Shown piece after piece: positions 4,981-50,303 of a stretch of 60,811 bases of DNA. The stretch covers positions 1 through 60,811 of the forward strand of contig CAMAWM010000012.1 of the NCBI GenBank assembly GCA_945861965.1, in the 5' to 3' direction. The first letter of the stretch is position 1; each line of letters starts with the position of its first letter. Position numbers and translations under genes: made by a program. Origin of the DNA: Chitinophaga pinensis. Its GTDB lineage: Bacteria; Bacteroidota; Bacteroidia; UKL13-3. The notes beneath the pieces were generated by a model. It was not told where the DNA came from. It saw nothing but the letters and a program-made list of their open reading frames with translations, and ran no database searches.

Positions 4981-5117
4981 AGAAATTTGTGTAAAATTTT
5001 TTATCTAATTAGATGAACGTCAATATTTATTACAAAATTAGATAGAAAAATTAATGGAAATAATAAAAATGAAAAGTTGGATTTTCAATTTTAAAATCAA
5101 AACAAAGAAATTTTTTG

Positions 5118-5191
5118 TCGGAGTGGCGGGATTTGAACCCACGACCTCTTGCTCCCTAAGCAAGTGCGCTACCAGGCTACGCTACACCCCG
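5118..5191 (-). tRNA. tRNA-Pro (anticodon AGG)
   Basis: The minus strand folds into a complete cloverleaf of 74 nt. The acceptor stem is CGGGGTG with CACTCCG (one G-U pair), with discriminator A73. The anticodon stem CTTGC/GCAAG closes a loop TTAGGGA, giving anticodon AGG. The T arm carries GGTTCGAATCC. C1-G72, A73, G35 and G36 all fit bacterial proline tRNA identity. CCA is not encoded. A34 is unusual for a bacterial proline tRNA (normally TGG, GGG or CGG). The gene is 26 bases downstream of mscS on the same strand. Upstream, 4928-5117 holds only the T9SS gene promoter and AT-rich sequence. Confidence 0.95.
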
Positions 5192-5217: not shown

Positions 5218-6312
5218 TCAACTTTCTTTTTCTAAAAAAACTGTTTGAGTTGGGTATGCAAAAGCACAATTGTTTTTTTCTACAATTTGAAGAATTTGTA
5301 AATTAATAGTTTCTTTTATTTCAATCATTTTTTCGTAAACATTTGTATTTACAAAATAGGTTATCAATAATTTTAATGAACTACTTTCAATATCAGAAAA
5401 ATTTACTGTAATTTCATCATTAATTTCAGGATGATTTTTTAATATTAATTTAATTTCATGGATAACCTTTAATATATCGGAAGAAGAAGTTTGATAAGTT
5501 AAATGCAAATGAAAAAGAACTCGTCTTTCTGAACTTCTTGAAATATTATTCAGTGCAGAATCTACCATTTTTTTATTCGGCACTGTCAATAAACTTCTAT
5601 CTAAAGTTCTAACTTTTGTTGTTCTAAATCCTACACTTTCTACAACACCATTTACTTCTCCAACTTGAACTTGATCGCCAACCTGAAAAGGTTTGTCCAA
5701 GTATATTACAAATGAACCAAACAGGTTTGCAATGGTATCTTGTGCTGCCAATGCTATTGCCAATCCTCCAATACCCAAACCTGCAAACAAGGCTAAAATA
5801 TTTACTTTAAACGCAAAATCAAGAACTGCAAAAAACGCAATGATTACCAATATTACTTTAATAAGTTCTTTTGAAAATGCAACTAAACCTTTGTTTATTT
5901 TTTCGTCTTCGTTGTGATTAAAAACGTAACTTACAAAGTCGGTCGTTTTTAATAATAATTTGCAGATGACAACGATAACAGCAATTGTAAAAGTTGCTTC
6001 AATCAACCAACGAAAACCAAAAATTTCGGCAGATGCCAAATTCCATTCTGTCGGAAAATTAAGTGTATTGAAAGCATAATAAATTACGATTAAAATAAAC
6101 AACTGCTCAAAAGGATTGCGAAGTAAAAGTATAAATACTTCGGAGTATTTGTCTTGCGAAAACTTTTTGAAAATTCTAAATGTTTGCTTGCTAACTAGTG
6201 TTGCAAAAAGCCGTTTAAAAATAAAACCGGATAGTAAAATTCCAACACAAAGCAGATAAGCACGAAATGTGTTTCCTAAAAATGTTTGTTCTAAAAGTAA
6301 ATTGTAGTTCAT
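5218..6312 (-). CDS. MscS-family mechanosensitive ion channel
   Basis: The 364-residue protein has about five membrane segments (near 17-35, 60-82, 101-121, 150-168 and 171-190). The last is the glycine/alanine-rich pore helix (LFAGLGIGGLAIALAAQD). It leads directly into the MscS beta domain (PFQVGDQVQVGEVNGVVESVGFRTT at about 208-232, then PNKKMVDSALNN). Channels of this family open under membrane tension and release solutes during osmotic downshock. It lies 40 bases downstream of paaC on the same strand and could be read through from it, although its function is unrelated. Confidence 0.93.
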   Translation of the reverse strand: MNYNLLLEQTFLGNTFRAYLLCVGILLSGFIFKRLFATLVSKQTFRIFKKFSQDKYSEVFILLLRNPFEQLFILIVIYYAFNTLNFPTEWNLASAEIFGFRWLIEATFTIAVIVVICKLLLKTTDFVSYVFNHNEDEKINKGLVAFSKELIKVILVIIAFFAVLDFAFKVNILALFAGLGIGGLAIALAAQDTIANLFGSFVIYLDKPFQVGDQVQVGEVNGVVESVGFRTTKVRTLDRSLLTVPNKKMVDSALNNISRSSERRVLFHLHLTYQTSSSDILKVIHEIKLILKNHPEINDEITVNFSDIESSSLKLLITYFVNTNVYEKMIEIKETINLQILQIVEKNNCAFAYPTQTVFLEKES

Positions 6313-6352: not shown

Positions 6353-7108
6353 TTACCATTCAGCGCTTGCATCAATCTTAAATACTTCGCTCATTTCATC
6401 TAACAATGGTTGCAGATTTGGAGTGTGTTTTCCTTGTCGTCCTCCATTTATAGCTTGCCATGTATTTGTATTAGGAATTTTTAAATTGGCTTTTTCTAAA
6501 ATTCCGCTAATGTTTTCAAGCCATCGTTTTTTTAATTCAACTTCGCCTTCAAATATTTTTTCTTCAATCAATTGCCTCTCAAATTGGCTTTCTTCAAAAA
6601 TACCTAATGCAAAATTCCAACATTCGTTCAATGCATTTTGCATTCTTGAATGGCTTTCTTCATTTCCATTTCCAAGTTTTGTAACCCAAATATTGGCATG
6701 AAAAACATGGTATTTTAATTCGCCTTTTATTTTTCTCGAAAGTTTTGCAAGTGGTTCAAACAAAGAGTTTGATAGCATTTCAAACCTCAACTGATCGGCA
6801 TGATCAAATAAAAAATGCCGAATGGTACTAAAATCATATTCGCCATTTGGCAACTCAACAAATTGTGAATTGTGAAACTGATTTGCATTGCGCATAAACG
6901 CAACGATGTCTGGTTCTTGTTCTCCAAGTGAATGTAAAATTTCGAACAATGCTTGCGATTGACCAATTTTATCTTGCGCCATAGATGAAAAGGCGATATC
7001 TTCCTCCAATATCGGGCCCAATCCTGTCCATTCGCTATTTCTATGGCCAAGTATTAATAGGTCATCGGCCATTTTGTAAAGCAATTCTTTTATTGCGTCT
7101 TGATTCAT
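6353..7108 (-). CDS. paaC: 1,2-phenylacetyl-CoA epoxidase subunit PaaC
   Basis: This 251-residue ferritin-like helical protein matches PaaC across its length. Visible features are an LGHRNSEW segment near residues 20-27, EEDIAFSSMAQDKIGQS at about 35-51, and a C-terminal HTPNLQPLLDEM segment typical of the family. PaaC is the structural partner that pairs with the diiron subunit PaaA in the PaaABCE oxygenase. That complex epoxidises the ring of phenylacetyl-CoA in aerobic phenylacetate breakdown. It begins 2 bases after paaB. No paaD or paaE follows; the next gene is mscS. Confidence 0.93.
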   Translation of the reverse strand: MNQDAIKELLYKMADDLLILGHRNSEWTGLGPILEEDIAFSSMAQDKIGQSQALFEILHSLGEQEPDIVAFMRNANQFHNSQFVELPNGEYDFSTIRHFLFDHADQLRFEMLSNSLFEPLAKLSRKIKGELKYHVFHANIWVTKLGNGNEESHSRMQNALNECWNFALGIFEESQFERQLIEEKIFEGEVELKKRWLENISGILEKANLKIPNTNTWQAINGGRQGKHTPNLQPLLDEMSEVFKIDASAEW

Positions 7109-7496: not shown

Positions 7497-8483
7497 TTAT
7501 GCTAATGGAATCAAATATTTTGAATCTTTTGCCAACAATGCTTGTCGCACCCATCTTCCTCTTTCTTCAGCATTTCTTCTTACAGCAAGTCGTTCGGCAT
7601 TGCAAGGGCCACCGCCATTTATTACGCGTTTAAATTCATCCCAATCGGGCTCAGTATATTCCCATTTATTTTCATTGTTTTTCATAAGTTTTGAATCAGG
7701 AACTGTTAATCCCAAATCCCAAATTTTGGGAACATACATATTTAAAAATTGTTGACGCATATCGTCATTAGTAGCCATTTTCACTTTCCACTTCATCAAT
7801 ATTTCAGTGTGTAACGAAATTTTATCTGAAGGGCCAAAAAAATGCATAATTGGCGGCCACCAACGATTTAAAGCCGCTTGTACCATTTCGCGTTGTATTT
7901 TGCTTCCTGTAGCAAGTGTTACTACATTGTCGTGACCATATTTTAAATGAAAACTTTCTTCGACACAAATTCTATCCAAAGCCCTACAATAAGGTCCGTA
8001 ACTTCCCTTTGCATTTGCCACTTGATTAATAATTGCACCAGCATCAATCAGCCATGCAATGATGCAAGCATCAGCCCAAGTATAAGCTGGATAATTAAAT
8101 ACATTTGAATATTTTGATTTGCCGGTAATCAAATCGTTGATCATTGCCTCGCGGCTTTTGCCAAGTGTTTCGGCTGCGCTATACAACAATTGCGCATGAC
8201 CAACTTCGTCTTGAACTTTTGCCATCAATGCCAATTTGCGTCTGAAACCAGGTGCTCGTGTTATCCAAGTTCCTTCTGGCAATGCACCAATAATTTCGCT
8301 GTGTGCATGTTGTTCTATCATTCGAACTAACTGCTTGCGATATTCTTTGGGCATCCAATCTTTGGGTTCGATTTTTTCGCCATTTGAAATTCGTGATTCA
8401 AATGCATTCAATTTCTGAATGTCTTCACCATCTGTTATTGAATTTGATTTCTCATTTGGATCAATGTAAGCGTTTCCGTACAT
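7497..8483 (-). CDS. paaA: 1,2-phenylacetyl-CoA epoxidase catalytic subunit PaaA
   Basis: The 328-residue protein is the diiron oxygenase subunit. Metal-ligand motifs are visible: E63 in HSEIIGALPEG, E93 and H96 in QDEVGH, and the EESFH motif at about 175-179. The C-terminus carries GGPCNAERLAVR, as in PaaA. The enzyme inserts one oxygen atom into the ring of phenylacetyl-CoA, using electrons normally delivered by PaaE. It follows paaR by 28 bases with no separate promoter or operator that I can see, so it is probably transcribed from the paaR promoter. Confidence 0.95.
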   Translation of the reverse strand: MYGNAYIDPNEKSNSITDGEDIQKLNAFESRISNGEKIEPKDWMPKEYRKQLVRMIEQHAHSEIIGALPEGTWITRAPGFRRKLALMAKVQDEVGHAQLLYSAAETLGKSREAMINDLITGKSKYSNVFNYPAYTWADACIIAWLIDAGAIINQVANAKGSYGPYCRALDRICVEESFHLKYGHDNVVTLATGSKIQREMVQAALNRWWPPIMHFFGPSDKISLHTEILMKWKVKMATNDDMRQQFLNMYVPKIWDLGLTVPDSKLMKNNENKWEYTEPDWDEFKRVINGGGPCNAERLAVRRNAEERGRWVRQALLAKDSKYLIPLA

Positions 8484-45594: not shown

Positions 45595-47061
45595 TTATAA
45601 TTTAGTTGTTATCCAATTTGTTCCGGGCGAAATTAAATCGATTAGTAAAAATGGAACTATGCCTATAATTACAATTCCTAAAATCAACAATATGGCAGCA
45701 AGTTTTTCGTTCCAGCTTGCATCTTTCAATGCATTGAATTTGTTATTTTCTAAATTGCCCATTACTACTTTTCCAATGGCACTCAAAATGTAAACAGCCG
45801 TTACAACAATTGATGCACAAGAAAGTATGGTTGCTATTCGATACCAAAGTTCTGAATTCTTCCATGATCCCATAAACACAGTCATTTCGGCAACAAAGCC
45901 ACTAAATCCAGGCAAGCCAAGCGAGCACAATCCGGCAATTACAAAAACCGATGAAATGAATGGCATTATTTTTAGCATTCCGCCCAATTGCGAAACAAGT
46001 CGCGTGTGTGTTCTTGAATAAATCATACCGATAGTAGCAAAGAAAAGGGCTGTCATTAATCCATGAGAAACCATTTGCATAACGGCTCCGTTAATTGCGG
46101 TTTGATTCAACATTCCAATTCCTAACAAAACAAATCCGCAATGGCTAACCGAAGAGTAAGCATTGATGTATTTTAAATCGGTTTGCATCATGGTTGCAAA
46201 TGCACCATAAATTATTGCAATGGTTGAAAGTAAAATGATTGCAGACGAATAATAATGTGCAGCATCGGGCATTAAATACGTAGCTACACGCAAACATCCA
46301 TAACCGCCAAGTTTCATCGAAATGCCTGCAAGAAACATAGATGCAGCAGTTGGTGCTGATGAATGTCCGTCAGGAACCCAAGTATGAAAAGGAAACAACG
46401 CAGTAAAAATTCCAAAGCCAATAAAAGCAAAAGGGAAAAATAATTTTTGGACTTCAAACGAAAGTTTCATTTGCGAAATTTGAATCAAATCAAAAGTGCC
46501 TGTATTGAAATAAATTCCAAGCAATCCGACAAAAACTAAAGCGGATCCTGCCATTAGCATCAATGCAAGTTTCATGGCGCTATATTCTTTTTTGCCGCTT
46601 CCCCATATTCCAATCAGCAGGTATTTGGGTACAACTGCAACTTCAAGAAAAAAGAAAAGTGTAAATAAATCAAGTGAGATAAAAAATCCGTATGCGCCAA
46701 CACTAAGTAACATGAGCAAAAAGAAAAATTCTTTGCTCATTCGTTCTTCATTCCACGAAACTAAAATACCAGCAAGTACTACAAATGCAGTTAGCAATAT
46801 CATTGCAATTGAAATTCCATCGACACCAACATGGTAATTAATATTTAAGGGTGCAAACCACACCAAATTGTTTTCAAAAACCATTTGCGATGTGTTGCCT
46901 AAATTTCGCTTAATAGAATAAAAATATAATAATGCAAAGCAAAGCAGAAGTTGAATGACTGCGCCAATAAATGCAAGCATTCGAATTTGTTTTAAGCCAT
47001 TGCAAAATGGAATTGCAAGTGCAAAAATTAATGGGAATAGTATAAGTAATGATAGATTCAT
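45595..47061 (-). CDS. nuoM: NADH-quinone oxidoreductase subunit M
   Basis: The 488-residue antiporter-like subunit has FFLEVAVVPKYLLIGIWG with the conserved membrane Glu, TWVPDGHSSAPTAASMFLAGISMKLGGYG and YINAYSSVSHCGFVLLG. It is one of three proton-pumping subunits. It starts 1 base after nuoL ends. Confidence 0.97.
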   Translation of the reverse strand: MNLSLLILFPLIFALAIPFCNGLKQIRMLAFIGAVIQLLLCFALLYFYSIKRNLGNTSQMVFENNLVWFAPLNINYHVGVDGISIAMILLTAFVVLAGILVSWNEERMSKEFFFLLMLLSVGAYGFFISLDLFTLFFFLEVAVVPKYLLIGIWGSGKKEYSAMKLALMLMAGSALVFVGLLGIYFNTGTFDLIQISQMKLSFEVQKLFFPFAFIGFGIFTALFPFHTWVPDGHSSAPTAASMFLAGISMKLGGYGCLRVATYLMPDAAHYYSSAIILLSTIAIIYGAFATMMQTDLKYINAYSSVSHCGFVLLGIGMLNQTAINGAVMQMVSHGLMTALFFATIGMIYSRTHTRLVSQLGGMLKIMPFISSVFVIAGLCSLGLPGFSGFVAEMTVFMGSWKNSELWYRIATILSCASIVVTAVYILSAIGKVVMGNLENNKFNALKDASWNEKLAAILLILGIVIIGIVPFLLIDLISPGTNWITTKL

Positions 47062-49830: not shown

Positions 49831-50303
49831 TCAACGCCCTCCCTTAATTTTGAACCTTCGAAATTTAATTTTTTTAACAGCTTGTTTCTATCAAACACGC
49901 TGTGCTCAAATGTTTGAGCCATTTTTATTGCGTCAGTTGGACAAGCAACAATACACAAGTTGCACATGGTACAAAGCTCTAGGTGATAAACAAAAGTATC
50001 AATGGCTTTTTTCTTTTTCCCTTCAGCGTTTATTTCAAATTTATTTAAGATTTTTATCGTTCCGTTCGGGCAAGCAATTTCACAAGCAGAACAACCTGTA
50101 CAGGCATGCTCATTGTTTTCATCGTGCAACAAAACTACTTCGCCACGAAAGCGATCGGCCAATTTCAATGTGCTTCTGTTATCAGGATATTGTTGTGTAA
50201 TTATTTCTTTGTGATGCAAAAAATAATACATCGTTCTTCTCAAACCAATTAGCAATGATTTTACAGCATTGAAAATATCTTTTATATAATTAATTATATA
50301 CAT
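49827..50303 (-). CDS. nuoI: NADH-quinone oxidoreductase subunit I (2 [4Fe-4S] ferredoxin)
   Basis: The 158-residue protein has two ferredoxin motifs, CTGCSACEIACPNG and CTMCNLCIVACPTDAI, that bind clusters N6a and N6b. The N-terminus is amphipathic and rests on the membrane. It hands electrons to NuoB. It starts 9 bases after nuoH ends. Confidence 0.97.
   Translation of the reverse strand: MYIINYIKDIFNAVKSLLIGLRRTMYYFLHHKEIITQQYPDNRSTLKLADRFRGEVVLLHDENNEHACTGCSACEIACPNGTIKILNKFEINAEGKKKKAIDTFVYHLELCTMCNLCIVACPTDAIKMAQTFEHSVFDRNKLLKKLNFEGSKLREGVE

Follow-up and report, generated by a model that had tools for sequence, protein, structure and literature searches.

The window, the whole 60,811-nucleotide stretch that we analysed, is contig 12 of a 2.10 Mb genome (G000; 61 contigs, 96.2% complete). 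It carries a 74-nt tRNA-Pro(AGG) gene without an encoded CCA on the minus strand (positions 5118–5191). ARAGORN called tRNA-Pro(agg) at 5117–5191, minus strand, and the Rfam model RF00005 matched 5118–5191 over its complete length (model positions 1–71) at 63.7 bits against a gathering score of 29, so that a chance match is of no concern. The gene folds as a cloverleaf with the C1, G72, A73 and NGG anticodon of a tRNA-Pro (acceptor stem CGGGGTG/CACTCCG). The anticodon stem forms five perfect pairs (CTTGC/GCAAG) and, read directly from the sequence, encloses the loop UUAGGGA at 5153–5159 (positions 32–38 in the order U32 U33 A34 G35 G36 G37 A38, bases 5159–5153, minus strand). The anticodon AGG occupies 5155–5157 on the same strand, with A34 at base 5157, by ARAGORN and by direct reading. 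This confirms a canonical, intact tRNA-Pro with an AGG anticodon, not a degenerate copy. A sequence-only reading of the window had given the loop, the stems, the coordinates and A34 correctly, and to these we add the strand. An MscS-type mechanosensitive channel gene lies 26 bp upstream of the tRNA gene (5218–6312, minus strand), assigned from NCBIfam MscS matches below the curated cut-off and from synteny. Genes for the phenylacetyl-CoA epoxidase subunits PaaC and PaaA are found at 6353–7108 and 7497–8483, also on the minus strand.

An Rfam tRNA search with identities assigned by ARAGORN yielded 33 tRNAs in G000, and the proline set among them consisted of AGG and UGG. Neither tRNA-Pro(GGG) nor tRNA-Pro(CGG) was found in this census or in pattern searches that left position 34 open; the census scored 150 of 199 candidates, from which a divergent tRNA copy could escape. 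Loose proline patterns were used for the searches; an exact family pattern with a fixed D arm missed most proline tRNAs, and its negatives were dropped. The reduced proline set that had been suspected from the anticodon alone is thus borne out, and tRNA-Pro(AGG) stands in for tRNA-Pro(GGG) in this genome. All four proline codons are used (n = 4013; CCU 31%, CCC 11%, CCA 46%, CCG 11%), which requires tRNA-Pro(AGG) or the UGG tRNA to read CCU and CCC. A further suggestion, that the AGG tRNA reads the whole CCN box, is unnecessary because UGG is present, and coverage of CCU and CCC suffices. In the 33-tRNA census, tRNA-Pro(AGG) and tRNA-Arg(ACG) were the only tRNAs with A34.

The tRNA-Pro(UGG) of G000 (L009, contig 15, positions 46849–46922) has the anticodon stem CCTGC/GCAGG, near that of the AGG tRNA, where nearly all family relatives have CCACA/TGTGG. 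Two other G34 tRNAs, tRNA-Val(GAC) and tRNA-Ser(GGA), were not found among the 150 of 199 Rfam candidates scored and could have escaped detection; in G000, GUC accounts for only 4% of valine codons.

To place the tRNA among its relatives we used a sample of the order, which comprises one family of 64 genomes with G000 as the sole member of its genus. Five of 74 bases separate the window tRNA from the GGG tRNA of three genomes (G045–G047), loop positions 34 and 38 among them; its anticodon stem, like the bulk of its body, is also found in the GGG proline tRNAs of the family. Elsewhere in the family, in three other genera (G057, G046 and G025), an MscS homologue lies approximately 1 to 2.5 kb from the GGG tRNA, in a partial synteny whose order and distance vary between genera. 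Because of the few differences and the shared MscS neighbourhood, we read the gene as a tRNA-Pro(GGG) that changed in place to AGG. U38 was retained in three A34 tRNAs elsewhere (L097 and L099 of the scan described below, and G070 of a class-wide draw), as expected if an intermediate acquired A34 first.

The same tRNA recurs well beyond this family. A pattern scan over 84,980 named genomes returned at least 117 stretches, 80 of them as loci, numbers that are counts and not frequencies. All 80 loci listed were called tRNA-Pro(AGG) by ARAGORN, and 77 of them had the loop UUAGGGA. Judged by record title, they comprised 49 Lachnospiraceae, further Clostridia, 15 Bacteroidota, two Succinivibrionaceae and one record labelled Chlorobiota; the Bacteroidota among the matches listed included Cyclobacteriaceae, Chryseotaleaceae, Microscillaceae and others. 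In the class-wide draw of 395 genomes, the G34 loops among the matches listed were AUGGGGU, UUGGGGU or CUGGGGG, without A38, and the A34 match stood alone in each of G000, G076, G271 and G070. The replacement of a GGG by an A34 proline tRNA therefore recurs in several unrelated bacterial groups. Position 34 had been flagged as a departure from the bacterial norm; the A34 is real, but it is no one-off, being common in Lachnospiraceae and recurrent in Bacteroidota.

Two PF14437 proteins were found in G000, a 148-residue TadA (contig 23) and RibD, which leaves one TadA homologue besides RibD. The 148-residue protein had TadA as its best NCBIfam match (133 bits, below the model cut-off of 150) and the TadA structure 1wwr as its best PDB match; a tadA gene is thus present. 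Its residue 109 is isoleucine and aligns with K110 of the Escherichia coli enzyme and K106 of the Staphylococcus aureus enzyme (SaTadA), where, in the S. aureus structure, the lysine contacts the RNA backbone and the 32–38 pair of the anticodon arm. The suggestion that TadA be inspected for changes hence proved fruitful: within the window's family, G000 has isoleucine, as against lysine in those G34 relatives whose site could be read.

Among the first 29 TadA sequences compared, all from Bacteroidota, residue 109 fully separated A34 from G34 genomes. In a set of 107, the 18 A34 Bacteroidota had Q (12 genomes), I, A, E, T, R or D, and 79 of the 89 G34 Bacteroidota had K, with four more carrying K one residue on and one gapped. 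Lysine at 109/110 was accordingly present in 0 of 18 A34 versus 83 of 88 G34 genomes (Fisher P = 3e-16, uncorrected for kinship). Column 109 was the best separator of A34 from G34 among the 148 TadA columns (0.93; next best, 0.67), a signal found by scanning all columns, and the three A34 genomes that joined the set later lie within the largest clade of A34 genomes. On the best TadA tree, built without these columns, eight path-disjoint A34/G34 pairs could be drawn, of which seven to eight agreed and none opposed; resolution of the tree is low, with 11 of its 104 branches starred as supported, and only one pair is left on starred branches. Outside Bacteroidota the pattern does not hold. The lysine was kept in all 19 A34 genomes of Clostridia and Succinivibrionaceae in which TadA was found, so its loss is not a general route to tRNA-Pro(AGG), and we rejected the idea that it is required everywhere.

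The usual TadA substrate is tRNA-Arg(ACG). In nearly all Bacteroidota seen, its loop is CUACGGA; it is UUACGGA in G000 and UUACGGC in G447, both of them A34 genomes. In G000, therefore, the arginine loop UUACGGA and the proline loop UUAGGGA differ at position 35 alone, which SaTadA holds without base-specific contacts (PMC10586758). With respect to the U33-A34-C35-G36 loop of TadA substrates, the window tRNA has U33, A34 and G36, with G at position 35; an exception to this loop is known in tRNA-Leu(AAG), in which the Streptococcus TadA makes I34 (PMC11472039, PMC13249217). The tRNA-Arg(ACG) of G000 (L016, contig 9, positions 50052–50125) has the T arm GGTTTGAATCC with U at position 56, a feature seen in many, not all, Bacteroidota. 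C at position 56 is nearly invariant in tRNAs.

We consider it probable that TadA deaminates A34 of the proline tRNA to inosine and that the resulting tRNA-Pro(IGG) reads CCU and CCC. In this scheme, G34-to-A and U38-to-A changes in the family's tRNA-Pro(GGG) would have given a working tRNA with the loop UUAGGGA, whose A34 is most likely deaminated by the single TadA of the cell alongside that of its arginine substrate. The tRNA-Pro(IGG) would then read CCU and CCC and could read CCA, and tRNA-Pro(UGG) would read CCA and CCG. Loss of the contact residue from Bacteroidota TadA (SaTadA K106, E. coli K110; I109 in G000) probably represents an adaptation of the enzyme to its second tRNA. The covariation favours inosine over unmodified A34, because TadA changes where tRNA-Pro changes, which decoding by plain A34 would leave unexplained. 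A finding against this scheme comes from trypanosomes, where ADAT2 was weakened by removal of the cationic residue at this site (PMC9643335).

A decoding model in which A34 stays unmodified, and in which the change from U38 to A38 does no more than return the loop to the form usual in proline tRNAs without G34, seems to us unlikely, even though several observations suit it. U34 and C34 proline tRNAs also carry U32 and A38, so A38 need not concern TadA, and the clostridial TadA is unchanged at the lysine. In E. coli, TadA left the AGG anticodon of a test tRNA unmodified, and this tRNA still read CCU and CCC, about equally (PMC11066159); PMC11066159 also cites a Salmonella tRNA-Pro with unmodified A34 that is reported to be functional and to read CCC. 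Such a model, however, gives no account of the loss of the TadA contact in 18 of 18 A34 against 5 of 88 G34 Bacteroidota. Codon usage was tried as a discriminator and set aside: the ratio CCC/(CCC+CCU) was 0.27 and 0.43 in A34 genomes versus 0.30–0.45 in G34 genomes, inside or just below the G34 range, and it tracks the boxes for Ala and Thr, which makes it uninformative about the choice between the hypotheses.

The TadA change could also reflect avoidance of tRNA-Pro(AGG), or be incidental, through shared ancestry or relaxed constraint, and would then be compatible with either decoding model. The replacements at residue 109 are diverse, as under relaxed constraint, the 12 A34 genomes with Q belong mostly to one clade, and E occurs in three related G34 genomes. 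Avoidance or accident is nonetheless somewhat improbable in our view, given the contrast between isoleucine and lysine within the window's own family and the loss of the lysine on several separate branches of the best tree, never in the opposing direction. A sequencing or assembly error that hides a true GGG anticodon is very improbable. G000 is a single draft assembly and has no congener in the sample, but a single-base error would leave unexplained that position 38 differs from the GGG relatives as well, that at least 80 other, independent records carry the AGG anticodon, and that the TadA of G000 differs as it does in other A34 genomes.

A wider proposal would be that bacteria have, in tRNA-Pro(IGG), a second inosine tRNA that is widespread and has evolved repeatedly, that each gain in Bacteroidota came with loss of the K106-type lysine, and that this one residue signals how a homodimeric deaminase broadened its substrate range in the direction of the eukaryotic one. 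We judge this proposal slightly less likely than not.

The change resembles systems known from elsewhere. Chen et al. reportedly described in 2002 a Salmonella tRNA-Pro(AGG), proL207, that was unmodified. As in the window's genome, it has A34 in place of G34 in tRNA-Pro(GGG); proL207 is a laboratory mutant, however, whereas the natural tRNA-Pro(AGG) genes also have A38 and are fixed in whole lineages. Eukaryotes likewise have an A34 proline tRNA in place of a G34 one, and their tRNA-Pro(AGG) is modified by ADAT2/ADAT3, whereas G000 would rely on a bacterial TadA encoded by one gene, judging from the PF14437 search. Another bacterial likeness is the tRNA-Leu(AAG) with I34 of Streptococcus and Oenococcus (PMC11472039, PMC13249217), in which an A34 tRNA replaces the G34 isoacceptor beside a U34 one and provides a second substrate for a single TadA, as we infer for G000. 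That system concerns another amino acid and another lineage, its inosine was demonstrated by RNase T1, cDNA and in vitro assay where ours is deduced, and the Streptococcus pyogenes TadA (2nx8 alignment) keeps lysine at the 109 site, unlike that of G000.

TadA-modified extra A34 tRNAs are therefore already known for tRNA-Leu(AAG), and the bacterial exceptions named in a review are Leu and Thr, not Pro (PMC8007984). In the open-access literature searched, we found no account of a natural bacterial tRNA-Pro(AGG), of its spread or of its covariation with TadA; papers elsewhere could hold one, and such genes are surely present in tRNA databases. Bacterial TadA is normally tied to one arginine tRNA, and the way in which its range widens bears on how the inosine tRNAs of eukaryotes arose. 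This question becomes directly testable where A34 proline tRNAs have been gained naturally several times and a candidate residue of the enzyme changes with them; if A34 is instead unmodified, the same genomes would be an uncommon example, in nature, of decoding by plain A34.

Among the genomes with tRNA-Pro(AGG), Acetatifactor muris (G457) carries two full-length TadA copies (L346 and L364), which lie approximately 17 kb apart on one contig (C72).
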